The notes under the pieces: model-generated
What the model saw: the letters and a program-made list of their open reading frames with translations, nothing else
Database searches by the model: none
What the model was told of the DNA's origin: nothing
Source of the DNA: Bacillus sp. N1-1
GTDB lineage: Bacteria > Bacillota > Bacilli > Bacillales > Guptibacillaceae
DNA length: 64,000 nt
NCBI RefSeq assembly: GCF_009818105.1
Contig: NZ_CP046564.1
Coordinates: 1,674,001 to 1,738,000, forward strand
Direction: 5' to 3'
Shown: positions 4,251-49,672 of the stretch, piece after piece
Numbering within the stretch: position 1 is the first letter of the stretch
Layout: the number at the start of each line of letters is the position of its first letter
Program-made: the position numbers and the translations under genes

Positions 4251-4270
4251 TATTGGTGTTTATAGTGTAG

Positions 4271-4400
4271 GGCTCCAGCGCTTGTCGAGGCTAAACGGGC
4301 GCTTCCGCTTTTCGTTGATCCAGCTGCAGTGGGCAGACACTCGGTCACTTCACCCTATAACTCAAACACAAAGACCGTGTAACGGGCGCTTCCGCTTTTT
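4271..4400 (+). repeat. structured repeat cluster 1 (half unit plus rearranged unit)
   Basis: A 3' half unit (4271-4313, ending CTTCCGCTTTTC) is followed by a second unit (4317-4400). The second has the normal 5' arm (AGTGGGC, AGACAC), apical stem start and loop AAAGACC, but then jumps to AACGGGCGCTTCCGC. Its outer 5' arm AGTGGGC therefore cannot pair with its 3' arm GGGCGCT, so it looks like a deletion or recombination product between two copies. The CTTTTT end lies 3 bases from the amtB stop codon (amtB is on the other strand). Confidence 0.8.
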
Positions 4401-4403
4401 GTT

Positions 4404-5807
4404 TTACCCGCTGGTTTTTGCTTCGGCTTGTGGTTCTTTAACACCTGGTTCGAGTCCGTTGAGTCGCTCGACTAGGCCGTGGCCGAATGGAGAAGGGGAT
4501 GAAGGGCTTTCGTTGTTGTTTAGAATGCCGCCTCTAAGCTCGTATGCTGTGGAGCCGTGCTCGGCGAAATCAAGTCCTTGAATTTCTTCTTCACGAGAAA
4601 CGCGGATTGATGTGAAACGTGTATAGATGAATAAAAAGGTGCCAACCGTTCCCATTGTCCAGGCCATAACTGCTAGAATTCCGATTGCTTGAACAAGGAT
4701 AAGGGATGCGCCGCCTCCGTAAAATAATCCTCCATCGATAGCAAATAATCCGACTGCTAAAGTTCCCCATACCCCGCATACGCCGTGAACTGCAATTGCT
4801 CCAACGGGATCATCCAATTTTACGCGACGGTCGATCAGCTGAACGGCTTCAATTAGAATAACTCCAGAAATGAGACCGATAAACATGGCGCCAATTGGGG
4901 ATACGCTTGCTGTACCTGCTGTAATTCCGACTAATCCAGCTAATGCTCCGTTAAGTGTTAAGGAAGCATCAATTTGCTTATAGCGAACGTAAGAATAAAG
5001 GGCACTTCCAATGACACCACTTGAAGCTGAGAGAAGAGTGGTTGCTACGATAGTAGGAATAAGTGCGTCGCTTGCTGAAAGAGTACTACCTGCATTAAAA
5101 CCAAACCAACCGAACCAGAGAATGAATACTCCAAGAGCACCGAGTGGAATATTATGTCCTTGAATAACATTTACCTTGCCGTTCGAATATTTCCCAATAC
5201 GTCCTCCGAGAAACGCAACGGCAACTACTGCTCCAAGTGCACCAGTCATGTGAACGACCGTTGATCCTGCAAAGTCCGTGAATCCTAACTCTGCAAGCCA
5301 TCCGCCACCCCAGATCCAGTGGCCAACGACAGGGTAGACAAATCCAATCATAATTACTGTAACAGCGATGTAGCTAATCAGTTTCATTCGTTCAGCTACT
5401 GCCCCAGAAATGATCGTTGCACAAGTTGCTGCAAAGACGGCTTGGAATACAAAGAATCCAAGATTTTCAGATTGTCCAAAGAGAAAGAAGCCATCACTAC
5501 CAATAAATCCGCCTGCTGACGAACCAAACATTAATCCATAGCCAACAATGAAGTAAAGAACTGCACCGATCGACATCGTTAGTAAGTTTTTCATTAAAAT
5601 GTTTAATGCGTTTTTCGAGCGAGTAAACCCAGTTTCAACCATTGCGAATCCTGCGTGCATAAAGAATACGAGAAATGCAGCAATCATAATCCAAACCGTA
5701 TCCATTGAAGCACTCAAGGCACTTACTTCTGTAGCATCACCTGCAGCGAAGACATGCCCACCTGAAAGAAGGAAGAGAAGAGCGAACAAACCAGTGATCT
5801 TTTTCAT
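4404..5807 (-). CDS. amtB: ammonium transporter AmtB
   Basis: 467-residue Amt/MEP/Rh channel that conducts ammonium/ammonia across the membrane. It has an N-terminal signal peptide, eleven expected hydrophobic segments, and both pore histidines (GSTVVHMTGALGA and AIAVHGVCGVWGT). The cytoplasmic tail carries the family motif EEEIQGLDFAEHGSTAYE, the region that docks PII proteins. I chose ATG 5807: the ATG at 5819 overlaps its own AAAGGA site, whereas 5807 has correct spacing. It lies 22 nt after glnK, its PII regulator, in one operon. A structured repeat begins 3 nt beyond the stop codon. Confidence 0.95.
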   Translation of the reverse strand: MKKITGLFALLFLLSGGHVFAAGDATEVSALSASMDTVWIMIAAFLVFFMHAGFAMVETGFTRSKNALNILMKNLLTMSIGAVLYFIVGYGLMFGSSAGGFIGSDGFFLFGQSENLGFFVFQAVFAATCATIISGAVAERMKLISYIAVTVIMIGFVYPVVGHWIWGGGWLAELGFTDFAGSTVVHMTGALGAVVAVAFLGGRIGKYSNGKVNVIQGHNIPLGALGVFILWFGWFGFNAGSTLSASDALIPTIVATTLLSASSGVIGSALYSYVRYKQIDASLTLNGALAGLVGITAGTASVSPIGAMFIGLISGVILIEAVQLIDRRVKLDDPVGAIAVHGVCGVWGTLAVGLFAIDGGLFYGGGASLILVQAIGILAVMAWTMGTVGTFLFIYTRFTSIRVSREEEIQGLDFAEHGSTAYELRGGILNNNESPSSPSPFGHGLVERLNGLEPGVKEPQAEAKTSG

Positions 5808-5829
5808 TGTTTTTATCATCCTTTTCTTT

Positions 5830-18154: not shown

Positions 18155-18195
18155 TTTAATAGTATCAAACCATTACATGTAAAGCTTTTATATAT

Positions 18196-18326
18196 CCACT
18201 AGGGGAGTCATTTAAATGACTGAGACAGGTGTTCCTGGACCCTTTGAACCTGATCTGGTTAGCGCCAGCGGAGGAAAGTGGAGACGGATGCCACCGCAGC
18301 CGCTCCATTTCTGGAGCGGCTTTTTG
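18196..18326 (+). promoter_or_regulatory. TPP riboswitch with terminator
   Basis: Aptamer at about 18196-18284 with the thi-box landmarks ACTAGGGGAG, CTGAGA, ACCCTTTGAACCTGAT, CTGGTTAG, AGCGGAGGAAAGTGGA. The expression platform ends with a GCCGCTCCA/TGGAGCGGC hairpin and T5 (18298-18326). Thiamine pyrophosphate binding should favour termination before tenA-ykoEDC. Confidence 0.95.
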
Positions 18327-23340: not shown

Positions 23341-24180
23341 TTGGAAGAAGTAAAAAAAATAATTGTCATTCTCTTAGGTGCGATTCTCGGGGCTGTTTCT
23401 CTTAACTTGTTTCTAATTCCTGCAAATGTGTATGCGAGCGGGTTTACAGGGATAGCGCAGCTCATTTCAAGCGTACTAAGTGATTATACACCTATTACCA
23501 TCTCGACAGGTATTCTGCTCATGTTACTCAATATTCCTGTTGCGATTCTTGGATGGAAGAAAGTGGGGAAGTCCTTTACATTATATAGTGTGATTAGCGT
23601 AGGGGCTACCACTATATTCCTTGAAATCATTCCAGTCCAAGCGCTTTCAGAAGATATTTTGTTAAATGCGGTATTTGGAGGCGTCATTGCAGCGATTGGT
23701 ATCGGTTTTACGTTAAAATGGGGGGCTTCTACCGGCGGAATGGACATTGTCGCTATGATCCTTTCTAGAATGAAAGATCGTCCCATTGGTACGTACTTCT
23801 TTAGCATGAACGCGTTGATTATTTTAACAGCGGGAATGCTGTACGGTTGGGAAAAAGCGCTTTACACGCTCGTTACCTTATATGTATCCTCTCGCGTGAT
23901 TGATGTTATTCACACTCGTCACGAAAAACTAACGGCCATGATCGTTACAGCGAAAGGTGACGAAATGCAAAAAGCCATTCACGATCGTCTAGTAAGAGGA
24001 ATCACCAAGCTTCCAGCCAAAGGAGCCTACCGCGGTGAACCTAAAGAAATGCTCATGATCGTCGTCACAAGATATGAACTCTATGACCTTGAACATATCA
24101 TTCAAGACATCGACCCAACCGCCTTCACCAACATCGTCAACACCACAGGAATATTTGGTTTCTTCCGAACGGATGGTTAG
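23341..24180 (+). CDS. YitT family membrane protein (DUF2179)
   Basis: 279-residue YitT-type protein. Five to six membrane helices occupy residues 1-165 (FLIPANVYASGFTGIAQLIS, GASTGGMDIVAMIL are family hallmarks), followed by a soluble DUF2179 domain (VTAKGDEMQKAIHDR, EPKEMLMIVVTRYEL). Transport substrate unknown. I prefer TTG 23341, spaced correctly from AAGAAGG; the GTG at 23332 overlaps that site. A fragment of the structured repeat begins at the base after the stop. Confidence 0.86.
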   Translation: MEEVKKIIVILLGAILGAVSLNLFLIPANVYASGFTGIAQLISSVLSDYTPITISTGILLMLLNIPVAILGWKKVGKSFTLYSVISVGATTIFLEIIPVQALSEDILLNAVFGGVIAAIGIGFTLKWGASTGGMDIVAMILSRMKDRPIGTYFFSMNALIILTAGMLYGWEKALYTLVTLYVSSRVIDVIHTRHEKLTAMIVTAKGDEMQKAIHDRLVRGITKLPAKGAYRGEPKEMLMIVVTRYELYDLEHIIQDIDPTAFTNIVNTTGIFGFFRTDG

Positions 24181-24244
24181 AAAAGCGGAAGTGGGCGTTT
24201 AGGGTCGACAAGCGCTGGAGCCTTATCAAAATAACACGCTCTTA
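24181..24244 (-). repeat. structured repeat fragment (3' half), directly after yitT stop
   Basis: On the minus strand it reads as the 3' half of the repeat family: remnant apical stem, GGCTCC, AGCGCTTGTCG, then TAAACGCCCACTTCCGCTTTT. The 5' half is missing. The CTTTT end is immediately adjacent to the yitT TAG stop. Confidence 0.8.
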
Positions 24245-33376: not shown

Positions 33377-33838
33377 ATGGAATATTATAAGATAACTTCT
33401 GAAGAAATTGATGTAAATCAAGTGATAACTAGCGTGATCCGTCCTGAAGCTGGGGCAATCAACACGTTTATTGGCACGGTAAGAGAATTTACTGGTGAAA
33501 AGCAGACCGTTTCGCTACAGTATGAAGCCTATCCTTCTATGGCTGAAAAACAGCTGAAACGAATCGGAATAGAAATTCGCGAGCAATGGCCTGATGTCCA
33601 AACGTCGATTGTGCATCGAATCGGAAAATTAGCCATTAGTGATGTTGCTGTCGTGATTGCTGTCGCATCTCCACACCGAGCAGAAAGTTATGATGCAAGT
33701 CGCTATGCCATTGAGAGAATCAAGGAAATTGTCCCAATTTGGAAAAAGGAATATTGGACTGATGGAGAAGAATGGATTGGGGATCAACTTGAAAACACGG
33801 CATACAAAAACGGAGCACCGAAGGAGGAAAAAGAATGA
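33377..33838 (+). CDS. moaE: molybdopterin synthase catalytic subunit MoaE
   Basis: 153 residues. MoaE converts precursor Z to molybdopterin using sulfur carried by MoaD. Signatures GAINTFIGTVRE, YEAYPSMAEKQL, HRIGKLAISDVAVVIAVASPHR and the active-site lysines in IWKKEYW are present. It overlaps moaD by 4 nt (ATGA), consistent with their heterotetramer. Confidence 0.93.
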   Translation: MEYYKITSEEIDVNQVITSVIRPEAGAINTFIGTVREFTGEKQTVSLQYEAYPSMAEKQLKRIGIEIREQWPDVQTSIVHRIGKLAISDVAVVIAVASPHRAESYDASRYAIERIKEIVPIWKKEYWTDGEEWIGDQLENTAYKNGAPKEEKE

Positions 33839-34068
33839 TTACCGTTCTTTTCTTTGCAAAACAGCAGGAACAACTTGGCTTGGAAAAGTTAGAGCGCTCT
33901 GAATCACAGCTTGCTGTTTCTGAGCTGAAACAAAAACTGATAGCCGATTATCCTGAGCTTACTCTTGCTCATACGATGACAGCGATTAATGAAGAGTATG
34001 CGGAAGAAGATCAAGTAATAAACGATCGCGATGTTGTCGCGTTTATTCCACCGGTTAGTGGAGGTTAA
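33835..34068 (+). CDS. moaD: molybdopterin synthase sulfur carrier MoaD
   Basis: 77-residue ubiquitin-fold carrier ending in the required Gly-Gly (PPVSGG), which is thiocarboxylated. It begins ITVLFFAKQQEQLG, typical of MoaD. AAGGAGG lies just upstream. Last gene of the molybdenum cofactor operon; a terminator follows at once. Confidence 0.93.
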   Translation: MITVLFFAKQQEQLGLEKLERSESQLAVSELKQKLIADYPELTLAHTMTAINEEYAEEDQVINDRDVVAFIPPVSGG

Positions 34069-34069
34069 G

Positions 34070-34096
34070 AAAAAACACCCAAATGGGTGTTTTTTG
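34070..34096 (+). terminator. terminator after moaD
   Basis: AAAAAACACCC and GGGTGTTTTTT around a 4-5 nt loop. Confidence 0.88.
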
Positions 34097-34120
34097 TTTG
34101 AGAAGGGATACTTTTCCCGT

Positions 34121-34209
34121 TTCGCGGATATATTCGTATTTTCGCGGAATTAACAACCGATTTCGCGGAAAAAATCAGAATATCGCGGAATTATTTGAAA
34201 TATCGCGGA
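34121..34209. repeat. five-copy CGCGGA array with 20-21 bp period
   Basis: The motif (A/T)TCGCGGA occurs at 34121, 34141, 34162, 34182 and 34202, so the steps are 20, 21, 20 and 20 bp. Sequence between motifs is AT-rich and poorly conserved, with AAT often following the motif. No ORF crosses it. The period is close to two turns of B-DNA, so all motifs face one side. Function unknown. Confidence 0.8.
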
Positions 34210-34228
34210 ATTGATGGTCGAAAGGGGT

Positions 34229-34739
34229 GCAATATCTCCGTTTCTCTTCGCTTTACAATGAGATCCAGCTGCGCGGGCCAAATCCTCCGGCTGTTTCGCC
34301 CTTTCGATTGAGACAAAAAGCGTCTTATTCGAAAGGGCTCCAACATCCTGCGGATTTAAGCAGGCCCGCTCCGCTTTTCGTGAGATCCAGCTCAGTGGGC
34401 AGGTCCTCGATCGCTTCACCATTTCATCCGAACACAAAGGGCGTGTTCAAATGAAATGCCTCCAGCGCTTGTCGGACCTAAACGCCCACTTCCGCTTTTC
34501 GTGTCTAGCTGCGACTCGCAGAAACTGCGATATTTCACTCTTTCACCAGAACACAAAGGGCGTGTTCTAGTTCAAGAGTTCCAATATCTTCGTTTCTAAA
34601 CGCTCGTCTCCGCTTTTCCTAGATCCAGCTGCAGCGCCCAGACACTCGGTCACTTCACCTTTTCATCCGAACACAAAGACCGTGTTCAAATGAAAAGGCT
34701 CCAGTGCCTGCCGTGTCTAAACGGGCGCTTCCGCTTTTC
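34229..34739 (+). repeat. structured repeat cluster 2 (partial unit plus four tandem units)
   Basis: Partial unit 34229-34254, then units at 34263-34379, 34384-34500, 34503-34618 and 34622-34739, head to tail. Each begins near CCAGCT(GC) and ends near CCGCTTTTC. Outer 7-bp stems differ but pair: GCGGGCC/GGCCCGC, AGTGGGC/GCCCACT, AGCGCCC/GGGCGCT (unit 3 imperfect, 5 of 7). Second stems also pair: AAATCC/GGATTT, AGGTCC/GGACCT, AGAAAC/GTTTCT, AGACAC/GTGTCT. Each has a 3' bulge (AAAC, or AAGCA in the first), a CTCC/TTCC internal loop and a 7-nt apical loop (AAAGGGC, AAAGACC or AAAAAGC). The last unit ends one base before the fnr stop codon. Confidence 0.9.
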
Positions 34740-35429
34740 TTATAACCTACAAATCGTGATTGGGCAGTCTTCGCAGTGGATGGCGCAGCGGAGGAATTCG
34801 AGGTCGTGGATGGTGATTTTTCCTTGTTTGACTGAGACGATGTTGGCTTTTTTTAGTTCGCTTAGGATGCGGTTGACGCTTTCTCTTGTAAGACCGCAGA
34901 AGTTGCCTAATTCTTGATTGGTAAGGGAAATATCGATTAGGATGTCATCTTTCTTTTTGACGCCATATGTATTGGAAAGACGAATTAAAGTGGAGTAGAG
35001 GGCTCCTTTTTTTCCGTGTAACAATAGATCTCGAAATTTAGATTGGTTTTTTCTAAAGTTTTCACCCATAAATTTCATAAATTGAGTGGCGAGGATGGCA
35101 TCGCTCGTTAATGTATCTTCAAGGTGAGCCTGTTTGACAAAGGTAGCTTTTACTCCATCAACTGCCCAGGCGTTTGCGGAGAAGTTAAGTTGTCCTGTAT
35201 AAAGAGCGAGTTCACCGATAAGATCACCTGGCTGACAAATTTGAAGCGTTAGTTCTCTACCATCTGAGGTCAGCTTGTTTAATCGAACGTTTCCAGACTG
35301 TATAAGAAAAAGGCGATCCGCTTTCATTCCATCCATATAAAGTGGTTCGTCTTTTTGAAATGAAATTGATTCGCCTTCTTCAGCAATCCACTTTTTCAGT
35401 GCATCTGAGTTGATCGTATCTTTTTTCAT
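34740..35429 (-). CDS. fnr: Fnr-type oxygen-responsive Crp-family regulator
   Basis: 229 residues: cyclic-nucleotide-type beta barrel (about 20-110), dimer helix, then a Crp helix-turn-helix (TNQELGNFCGLTRESVNRIL). The C-terminus CEDCPITICRL gives Cys-x2-Cys-x4-Cys, the spacing reported for the [4Fe-4S] ligands of B. subtilis Fnr, whose fourth ligand is an Asp; the matching FRDLLLHGKKGALYS segment is present. It should activate anaerobic respiration genes. GGGAGG precedes ATG 35429. The molybdenum cofactor genes nearby fit nitrate respiration. A structured repeat ends one base before its stop. Confidence 0.9.
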   Translation of the reverse strand: MKKDTINSDALKKWIAEEGESISFQKDEPLYMDGMKADRLFLIQSGNVRLNKLTSDGRELTLQICQPGDLIGELALYTGQLNFSANAWAVDGVKATFVKQAHLEDTLTSDAILATQFMKFMGENFRKNQSKFRDLLLHGKKGALYSTLIRLSNTYGVKKKDDILIDISLTNQELGNFCGLTRESVNRILSELKKANIVSVKQGKITIHDLEFLRCAIHCEDCPITICRL

Positions 35430-44379: not shown

Positions 44380-44910
44380 ATGCTTGTCTCCGCAGCGCCT
44401 GTGGGCCCTAACAACCAGCTCCGCTTTTCGTCTGATCCAGCTGCGACTCGCAGAAACTGCGATATTTCACTCTTTCACCAGAACACAAAGGGCGTGTTCT
44501 AGTTCAAGAGTTCCAATATCTCCATTTCTAGACGTTCGTCTTCGCTTTTCGTGTCTAGCTGCAGCCTCCAGACCCTCGGTCACTTCACCTTTCAACCTGA
44601 ACACAAAGGGCGTGTTCATTTTGAAAGGCTCCAGTGCCTGCCGGGTCTAAACGGAGGCTTCCGCTTTTCGTGTGATCCAGCTGCAGTGGGCAGACACTCG
44701 GTCACTTCACCCTATAACTCGAACACAAAGGACGTGTTCAATTTGGATGCCTCCAGTGCCTGCCGTGTCTAACCGCCCACTTTCGCTTTTCAATGTCTAG
44801 CTACGACTCGCAGAAACTGCGATATTTCGCACTTTCACTAGAACACAAAAAACGTGTTCTAGTTCAAGCGCTCCAATATCTCCGTTTCTAAACGCTCGTC
44901 TCCGCTTTTC
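44380..44910 (+). repeat. structured repeat cluster 3 (degenerate unit plus four tandem units)
   Basis: A worn partial unit (44380-44429) is followed by units at 44434-44550 (type B), 44553-44669, 44674-44791 and 44795-44910 (type B). Outer stems of the two A-type units, AGCCTCC/GGAGGCT and AGTGGGC/GCCCACT, and second stems AGACCC/GGGTCT and AGACAC/GTGTCT all pair exactly. The B units share AGAAAC with (G/A)TTTCT and GATATT/AATATC. All keep the GAACAC-7nt-GTGTTC apical hairpin. Chance frames of 73 and 99 codons crossing the cluster are not genes. The rest of 44314-45016 holds only the fabF terminator and yjbA leader. Confidence 0.9.
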
Positions 44911-45812: not shown

Positions 45813-47105
<1,293 letters not shown>

Positions 47106-47986: not shown

Positions 47987-49672
47987 ATGAAGAAATCAAG
48001 ATGGACGCTTGTCCTATCTCTTGTGCTTGTATTGAGCGTATTCCTGTCGGCTTGCGGCGGCGGCTCAAACAACGGGGGGAACAGTGGCGGAGAAGGCGAA
48101 GGAGAAGGCGGTTCTGCTGAACAAGTACTTAACTTAGTAGAAACAGCTGAAATTCCTTCAATGGATACAACACAAGCTACTGATAACACATCTTTTAAAG
48201 CAATGAACCAGGTTTTCGAAGGACTTTACCGTCTTGACGAAAATAACGAGCCTACACTTGGTATGGCTGCCGAAGAACCAAAAGAAGAAGAAAAAGACGG
48301 TGAAACTGTTTACACATTCACAATTCGCGATGACGCTAAATGGTCTGACGGATCTGATGTAGTAGCAGGAGATTTCATCTATGCATGGCATAAAGCACTA
48401 AACCCAGATACAATTTCTCCTTACGCTTCTATGTTTGGTACTGCAGGAATCAAGAATGGTAATGCGATCATTACTGAAGGCGATCCTCTTTACGGTAAAG
48501 TAGAAGAGCTTGGAGCTAAAGCAGTAGACGAGAAAACACTTGAAATTACTGTAGAAAATCAAGTTCCATATTTCAAATCGTTGCTTACTTTCGCAACTTT
48601 CTATCCACAACCAGAAGGCTATGCTGAAGAGCAAGGCGATAAATTTGCTCTAGAAGCTGACACTATGCTTTACAACGGACCATTCGTTTTCTCTGAGTGG
48701 AATCACGGCGAAGGCTGGACTTTTGAGAAAAACCCTGAGTATTGGGATGCTGAAACTGTAAGCCTTGAAAAAGTTACAACTAAAGTTGTACAAGATGTTG
48801 CAACAACAGTTAACCTTTATGAAACAGGCAAGATTGACCGCGCAGGTCTATCAGCTGACTTTGTAGATCAGTTCAAGGACAACGAAGAGTTCTCAACTCT
48901 TGTAGATCCTACAATGTACTTCATGCGTCTAAACCAGGAAACTGAAGCACTAGCGAACAAAGATATCCGTAAAGCACTTTATCTTGCATATGACCGCGAA
49001 GGACTTGTAAATGTTCTTCTTAACAACGGATCAATTGCAGCTAAATATTTCGTGCCAAAAGACTTTGTAAAAGGTCCAGAAGGTGATGACTTCCGCGAAT
49101 TCGCTCCAGACGGCTTCTATGCTGATCAAGGTGAAGAAGAAGCGAAAAAAGCTTGGGAAGCTGGACTTGAAGCTCTAGGTACAGATTCTGTTGAACTAGA
49201 ATTCCTTACAACTGATAATGAGCTTGCTGCGAAAATTGCAGAATATGCAAAAGATCAGTTTGAAACAAAGCTTGACGGTCTTACACTTACAATCAACAAG
49301 CAGCCTTGGAAGCAATTCCTAGAGCTTGAAGATTCAGGTGACTTTGATATCTCAACTGGTGGTTGGGGACCTGACTATCCAGATCCAATGACATTCCTTT
49401 ATATGTTTGAAACAGACGGCGCATACAACCGCATGGGTTACTCAAGTGAGAAGTATGACGAGTTAGTTTCAGGAGCTAAGAAAGAAACAGATGAAGCTAA
49501 GCGTTGGAAAATGATGCAAGATGCTGAGAAGGTTCTAATGGAAGAGGACATTGCAATCGTTCCTACTTACCAAAAAGGTAATGCAATCCTTCAAAAAGAT
49601 TACGTTAAGAACTTCTATGTTCACTCCTTTGGTGCTGACTCATCTTACAAATGGATCAAGATTGAAAAATAA
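47987..49672 (+). CDS. oppA: oligopeptide ABC transporter binding lipoprotein OppA
   Basis: 561-residue peptide-binding protein. Lipobox LSACGGG at about 20-26 followed by a Gly/Glu-rich linker. Family 5 solute-binding signatures: FKAMNQVFEGLYRLDE, YTFTIRDDAKWSDG and DKFALEADTMLYNGPFVFSEW. It captures peptides, including in B. subtilis the Phr signalling peptides for competence and sporulation. AAGGGAGG precedes ATG 47987. A strong hairpin after it should give excess binding protein over the membrane parts. Confidence 0.94.
   Translation: MKKSRWTLVLSLVLVLSVFLSACGGGSNNGGNSGGEGEGEGGSAEQVLNLVETAEIPSMDTTQATDNTSFKAMNQVFEGLYRLDENNEPTLGMAAEEPKEEEKDGETVYTFTIRDDAKWSDGSDVVAGDFIYAWHKALNPDTISPYASMFGTAGIKNGNAIITEGDPLYGKVEELGAKAVDEKTLEITVENQVPYFKSLLTFATFYPQPEGYAEEQGDKFALEADTMLYNGPFVFSEWNHGEGWTFEKNPEYWDAETVSLEKVTTKVVQDVATTVNLYETGKIDRAGLSADFVDQFKDNEEFSTLVDPTMYFMRLNQETEALANKDIRKALYLAYDREGLVNVLLNNGSIAAKYFVPKDFVKGPEGDDFREFAPDGFYADQGEEEAKKAWEAGLEALGTDSVELEFLTTDNELAAKIAEYAKDQFETKLDGLTLTINKQPWKQFLELEDSGDFDISTGGWGPDYPDPMTFLYMFETDGAYNRMGYSSEKYDELVSGAKKETDEAKRWKMMQDAEKVLMEEDIAIVPTYQKGNAILQKDYVKNFYVHSFGADSSYKWIKIEK

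Follow-up and report, generated by a model that had tools for sequence, protein, structure and literature searches.

The array described here lies in a window of 64,000 nucleotides, the whole stretch of DNA that was analysed, from the 4.5 Mb single-contig genome of Bacillus sp. N1-1, placed here in the genus Pseudalkalibacillus. At positions 34265-34739 of the window, on the forward strand, four nested hairpins stand head to tail between genes. They follow a set of molybdopterin genes ending in a MoaD-type gene, and the CTTTTC that closes the fourth unit directly adjoins the stop codon TTA (34740-34742) of a Crp-type gene on the reverse strand (Table 1).

All four units start with C(C/T)AGCT and end in CGCTTTTC. 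The outer helix of the unit has 7 bp and is accompanied by a 3' bulge of 4-5 bases. A helix of 6 bp and a short helix come next, then an internal loop, and innermost stands a long helix with a loop of 7 nt. The original prediction had described these flanks, the 3' bulge, the internal loop, the 7-nt apical loop and a number of stems for the four units, and inspection of the sequence together with folding confirmed the presence of them all. Unit 3, whose stems it did not quote, has an imperfect outer helix with only five of seven pairs. Folded as single-stranded DNA, units 1 to 4 each performed better than 200 of 200 dinucleotide shuffles (z of -5.5, -5.1, -3.2 and -6.1, respectively); the DNA fold of unit 3 consists of the inner hairpin only, and its fold with RNA parameters has the family shape.

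Table 1. Hairpin units and neighbouring features. Positions are those of the window unless a locus handle is given; subfamily letters (A, B, C, C') are labels given in this analysis.
Feature	Position	Strand	Remarks
MoaD-type (ThiS family) gene	33835..34068	+	last of the upstream genes
Terminator-like inverted repeat	34067..34098	+	after the molybdopterin genes, upstream of the array; read from the sequence, absent from the terminator-scan list
Probable remnant of a 5'-truncated older unit	34218..34256	+	3' arm, end GCTTTAC; read from the sequence and from likeness to a remnant in congener locus L011
Hairpin unit 1	34265..34379	+	subfamily A; outer stem GCGGGCC/GGCCCGC
Hairpin unit 2	34387..34500	+	subfamily C; outer stem AGTGGGC/GCCCACT
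Hairpin unit 3	34505..34618	+	subfamily B; outer stem GACTCGC/GCTCGTC, imperfect, 5/7 pairs
Hairpin unit 4	34625..34739	+	subfamily C'; outer stem AGCGCCC/GGGCGCT
Crp/Fnr-type regulator gene	34740..35429	-	convergent on the array
Second array, four units	44437..44910	+	44437-44550, 44555-44669, 44677-44791, 44797-44910; covariance model matches
Decayed units	4263..4400	+	beside gene 4404-5819 (-)
Single 5'-truncated unit	24180..24243	-	3' arm, start near the apical loop
23S-5S spacer units	L135:3295-3409, L136:3018-3132, L137:2942-3056	-	three rRNA operons of the window genome, 4 nt after 23S; two identical, the third two bases different
23S-5S spacer unit, another genus	L124:1501-1616		3 nt after 23S

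The second array of the window is preceded by a terminator-like stretch and a 3'-arm remnant, both read by eye. Just upstream of the first array, at 34120-34213, there is a second short repeat with CGCGGA cores about 20 bases apart; this repeat, TCGCGGAA, is found at 34142, 34163, 34183 and 34203, with one further copy elsewhere in the window, on the reverse strand at 49091, and the number of its copies upstream of the array varies among congeners. The window also holds a T-box leader (46867-47092, reverse strand) and a TPP riboswitch (18191-18293, forward strand), both ordinary by Rfam.

The units belong to a family of non-coding DNA hairpins of about 115 bases found in scattered genera of Bacilli. 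A covariance model built from 40 units gave at least 67 matches in the window genome, where 150 of 1680 candidates were scored, 100 matches in the congener G009 and hundreds in the genus. Model building and genome search had been proposed by the original prediction; the eight full units of the window were recovered at E 3.4e-28 or better, several of them being among the model's own training units. Another 217 matches were found in 68 eight-kilobase loci of relatives, seven of the initial 75 loci having been left out for unrelated titles. The original prediction had pointed to similar repeats in other Bacillaceae, and the architecture is indeed common to other Bacilli: matches occur in 17 of 151 sampled Bacilli genomes, or 14 of 82 genera (per-genome counts of 24 in this survey mean at least 24), with 62 matches in genome G168 and 38 in genome G161. 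The list of 17 carriers is incomplete, as G032 was also matched by a second model and G014, G023 and G027 showed similarity at the DNA level; none of these four enters the carrier counts.

The second model, derived from 32 units of at least 11 genera, matched six of 398 sampled Bacillota genomes, all six of class Bacilli; absence outside Bacilli is weak evidence, because only nine candidates were scored per genome, at E 1e-6 and with strict filters. At the gathering score no Rfam family covers the units of the window or those of 17 other loci, the matches there lying elsewhere, and at E up to 5 nothing convincing fell on the units over 33800-35000. A known Rfam family over the units, which the original prediction had named as evidence against itself, was thus not found in Rfam 15. 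Plasmid and phage collections gave no match to the units at blastn sensitivity. In literature text, searched with subscription journals mostly outside the search and so giving no proof of absence in print, five unit end sequences were found only in papers unrelated by title to bacterial repeats, and within the same limits no report on Bacillaceae terminator-type repeats came up. Two variants were also seen. In L108 and L123 (genome G172) the units measure 143 nt, the apical part being larger and the outer helices as usual, and G168 has (in L195, L196, L199, L201, L202 and L210-L212) a further kind of unit, with a stretch like CTCGTGCGGATCGCTCCAGTCCATACGTCGCTAAACGG, which precedes many units and was undetected by the first model.

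The moaD-crp site could be compared in nine of the 14 genus genomes, namely the window genome and eight congeners; in the other five the gene was not found at E 1e-60. The site carries one to five units in varying order, for instance A-C-B-C' in the window and A-B-C-A in G008, with B as the sole full unit in G011 and G004. All nine arrays end at the crp stop codon, and two of them include a truncated unit. At site A (G000:4270383) a unit was detected by the profile in seven of the 14 genus genomes, rearranged remnants in two and none in five, and at site B (G000:1994968) units are present in 12 of the 14 and absent from two.

Direct comparison of an empty and a filled sequence suggests how a unit is placed. 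The empty locus L218 reads ...CTCGGCTTTTC TCTACTTC, and the filled locus L220 reads ...CCCGGCTTTTC [unit CTTTTC][unit CTTTTC] TTTATTTC, so that relative to L218 the unit stands 3' of a CTTTTC and itself ends in another CTTTTC. At a further site the near-empty ortholog has GAG TAA AAC and the filled one GAG TAA AGCG. In both empty sequences of site B a strong terminator-like hairpin precedes the target; of the eight site A sequences only one has a hairpin there that beats 95% of its shuffles. A short repeat similar to the CGCGGA one, TTTGGCCAATAAAA/TTTGGACAATATAT, stands to the left of the hairpin units in L155 and its orthologs L213-L224, its copy number varying.

Neighbours within an array are mostly unlike each other. 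Outside their ends, 125 of 136 adjacent pairs ending in TTTTC and 25 of 27 ending in TTTAC are less than 90% identical, and tandem duplication was therefore rejected as the source of most arrays; it is likely for a few, such as the five units with near-equal scores at G000:1621255-1621848. The endings behave otherwise and cluster by array, with 30 TTTAC-TTTAC pairs, seven mixed and 207 without TTTAC (p 1e-30). Copies at orthologous loci are not independent in these two counts, nor in the counts of truncation, last-unit pairs and alignment mispairs given below. Hence the ending, CTTTTC or CTTTAC, is for the most part a property of the place, and the body one of the unit; this is expected if each insertion copies or duplicates its target and thereby makes the next one. 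For 31 of the 38 TTTAC units, counted with orthologous arrays, the nearest body nevertheless belongs to another TTTAC unit, and shared endings within an array could stem from conversion between neighbours. Looked at as a target site duplication, CTTTTC/CTTTAC stands on both sides of the units and follows the array, and is at the same time the unit's own end.

The orientation of the arrays is biased with respect to replication. Among 66 arrays of three near-complete genomes from three families, 49 have the leading and 17 the lagging orientation (p 0.0001); these are 27 arrays of the window genome, 20 of G168 and 19 of G161 among the matches listed, the lagging G168:720120 being left out. The origin was taken as the contig start and the terminus as 2.35, 1.60 and 1.824 Mb, and for G161 and G168 the flank GC skew had its expected sign in 36 of 39 rows. 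Arrays between convergent genes, a setting in which gene direction introduces no bias, are leading in 16 cases and lagging in four, two of the four in rRNA operons. The 27 arrays of the window genome occupy the spaces between larger open reading frames. The exception is L151, into which a frame of 612 codons extends by 45 nt; some other arrays are overlapped by short frames.

Placement with respect to genes is also one-sided, in counts where genes were called as open reading frames only, so that small genes and rRNA genes were missed. An opposite-strand gene flanks 38 arrays on the 3' side. Of these arrays, 28 end within 8 nt of the stop codon of that gene, and another three have their end 4 nt past a 23S rRNA gene, before 5S rRNA; an overlapping set of 63 non-redundant loci has 25 of 31 arrays abutting an opposite-strand stop. 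No array out of 45 starts within 8 nt of the end of a same-strand gene on its 5' side. Such abutting of stop codons, and the spacer units of Table 1 within 3 or 4 nt of 23S, would suit RNA structures that work locally, as the 3' UTR of a reverse-strand transcript, rRNA spacer or terminator, and are under selection at each place. We consider this unlikely, as species of the genus differ in how many units they carry and in what order, and the terminator scan gave one weak site over the array (34723-34736), with three sites in the region against 1.7 in shuffles; the substitutions discussed next also bear on it.

The stems covary strongly. In the genus alignment of 40 units, 26 of 40 pairs are doubly changed, with 292 doubly changed cells against 94.9 in shuffles; further pair types number 50, not above the 54.8 of shuffles, and 16 cells, summed from the table, have a one-sided change to another standard pair. 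Across genera (32 units, at least 11 genera) 36 of 39 pairs are doubly changed, in 317 cells against 83.5, with 88 further pair types against 74.4 and 21 one-sided cells. Most of the signal is lost in both sets when the partner is shifted by one to three columns. The scarcity of G-U steps is unusual for RNA. From such two-sided change the original prediction had concluded that a fold is selected and that simple duplication is insufficient: the change is indeed real, far beyond chance and more than duplication explains, whereas selection for a folded RNA at each place was not borne out by the analysis of single copies.

If each copy had an RNA job, its private changes should avoid stems or end as G-U pairs. 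In 177 distinct units of 12 subfamilies, private changes fall on stems (106/13346 = 0.0079 per base) about as on loops (68/6939 = 0.0098 per base; p 0.17), and the one-sided private mispairs are 17 G-T, 18 A-C and 32 other. The three model alignments, with constant columns left out, have G-T to A-C mispairs of 17:12 (A1), 28:42 (A2) and 30:43 (A3). More favourable to local RNA are 34 pairs of last units at orthologous sites, which share members and are not independent: in these pairs stems changed less than loops (0.053 versus 0.081), and A-C mispairs outnumber G-T by 24 to 8 on the written strand, with no G-U excess, which weakly fits some use of a reverse-strand RNA.

In the same 177 units, 39 further positions changed jointly with their partner, some of them in units only two or three places off the subfamily consensus. 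Single copies thus drift and yet paired changes keep arising; therefore either the well-folded units are those that propagate, or one arm serves as template for the other. Arm-to-arm copying of hairpins by template switching during DNA replication, yielding compensatory pairs in one step, is described in one study (PMC8794818). A possible instance is the shortened unit of L216 at site A, the arms of which, AGCTGCAGTGACC and GGTCACTGCAGCT, are fully complementary. The structure seems to be kept at the level of the spreading family, as would suit a DNA hairpin with a role in propagation. The covariation test suggested in the original prediction would probably be passed, and it cannot separate local selection for RNA from a DNA hairpin kept at the level of a spreading family.

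Truncation is one-sided as well. Among units cut on one side only, the 3' side is kept in 50 and the 5' side in one, and 37 of the 50 5'-truncated units begin no earlier than model position 43, with the apical loop spanning about positions 51-57. A constant 3' end with 50:1 loss of the 5' side is what target-primed reverse transcription would leave, in which an RNA ending in the unit's U-tract is copied onto the target end, in the manner of group IIC introns downstream of terminators; the replication bias and the terminator-like hairpin before the target at site B agree with it. Reverse transcriptase (RVT_1) has no match in the window genome, though, and is not associated with the family (9 of 17 carriers versus 84 of 151 sampled genomes), and the equal G-T and A-C mispairs give no sign of an RNA stage, all of which makes this explanation very improbable; a reverse transcriptase was accordingly set aside as the partner.

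Single-stranded DNA transposition is the other enzymatic route. Non-autonomous elements could be moved in trans by a dedicated ssDNA transposase of another type, in the REP/IS200/IS605 manner, with hairpin recognition, a short target and a preference for the lagging strand, the latter being reported in PMC6006769. Such a transposase would account for hairpin ends, fixed orientation to a short target, a replication-linked direction and the patchy presence among genera. The element's own right end should not, on the other hand, follow the array, yet the endings do. The Y1 transposase (PF01797) occurs in 9 of 17 carriers and 74 of 151 sampled genomes, which is no association, and is absent from G161 despite its model matches; the three Y1 genes of the window genome have no unit within 1.5 kb and are not flanked by units. 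RAYT/Y1 was rejected as a required partner, having no flanking units and no association across the 151 genomes, and five of the 17 carriers (G083, G026, G119, G155 and G161) have neither Y1 nor RVT_1. On balance we hold a dedicated transposase of another type to be rather unlikely.

The reading that we favour, while giving it somewhat short of an even chance, is that the repeats spread as selfish mobile DNA, new units being copied in at CTTTTC/CTTTAC in one orientation and stacking on themselves. From the observed filled, differently filled and empty sites, the unlike neighbours, the array-bound endings, the orientation bias and the loss of 5' parts we infer a possible course of copying at replication forks. 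In the leading orientation the written strand of the unit is on the lagging-strand template. The growing strand would come from the 3' side, copy the CTTTTC foot and be halted by the hairpin beyond. The halted end, GAAAAG or GTAAAG, could then pair with the CTTTTC end of another unit, copy this donor from the 3' to the 5' end and return, an early return leaving a 5'-truncated copy. Because units themselves end in the target stretch CTTTTC/CTTTAC, they would stack head to tail. Paired changes would be made or kept during propagation, through the spread of good folders and the restoring of pairing by arm-to-arm copying, with no job for the resident copy.

Such copying would yield fixed orientation, a target at the foot of a hairpin, array-bound endings, 5' truncation, replication bias, mixed stacking and the lack of a shared enzyme. 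Its transposase-free form, in which hairpins multiply by catching stalled lagging-strand ends, so that the fork copies and stacks the units and the same switching keeps the arms complementary, we put forward only tentatively, as somewhat doubtful. Confidence in both the whole and the enzyme-free form is held down because each feature has another possible source. Simple decay could account for the 5' truncation, because a loss from the 3' side would damage a gene, and patchy presence among genera is what one would expect of an element that has its own enzyme or is transferred. Copying alone does not predict how sharply the arrays abut stop codons and the ends of 23S. The weak hairpin before the target at seven of eight site A sequences counts against the copying model, and the slower stems and A-C excess of the 34 orthologous pairs count against a reading by DNA copying only.

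If fork copying is right, the repeat would need no enzyme of its own to spread. Should a hidden enzyme come to light, the units would be part of a new mobile system, directed by hairpins and stacking on itself. The results also suggest that a DNA element with freely decaying single copies can produce overwhelming covariation, which is usually read as a mark of functional RNA; the family would thus be a useful negative example for covariation-based RNA discovery.

Several known systems share single features with the family. Integron attC sites are long imperfect single-strand hairpins in which the stem sequence varies and the shape is kept. The units here are likewise hairpins of shape over sequence, and differ in their conserved ends and in having no cassettes between them; the only gene examined as possible cargo between two units encodes a 4HBT thioesterase and is an ordinary gene. 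Group IIC introns insert after intrinsic terminators, which is a likeness, and a unit of about 115 nt is far too short for a group II intron ribozyme; the window genome, moreover, has no RVT_1 match. Hairpins made by template switching share the one-step compensatory pairs, and in the accessible part of PMC8794818 they concern RNA genes and not a way for a repeat to spread.

A MITE of a DDE insertion sequence would have the 15-30 bp terminal inverted repeats of its IS, which are not present here: the outermost pairs kept in 40 of 40 units are three, AGC/GCT, and the rest of the inverted repeat varies. The repeats bcr1 of the Bacillus cereus group, EFAR, BOX and RUP are small non-coding intergenic stem-loop repeats of Gram-positive bacteria (PMC2267715, PMC3733652). 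These MITE-like repeats are alike in being small intergenic stem-loops and are set apart, by description only, by the missing 15-30 bp IS inverted ends of our units. Bhal-1 of Bacillus halodurans, as given in a 2008 survey (PMC2267715), is 74 bp long and has 36 intergenic copies with a predicted common structure. It thus shares with the present units the intergenic place, a predicted common structure and a Bacillaceae host, its 74 bp standing against about 115 here, and on this comparison of partial descriptions it may be related to them.

The family is without a match in Rfam 15 and is common in some Bacilli. REP, BIME and REPIN elements with their RAYT (TnpA-REP) resemble it as intergenic palindromes in high copy number (at least 67 here), found in arrays and likely linked to replication. 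These elements are combined in arrays and lie near gene ends. REP elements are 20-40 nt long according to PMC3733652, and the units here differ in their length of about 115 nt, in their nested helices, in standing head to tail in one orientation and in having no Y1 link. By behaviour, REP/BIME/MITE-type intergenic palindromes are nevertheless the closest known kind, and the family described here is a large self-stacking variant of them.
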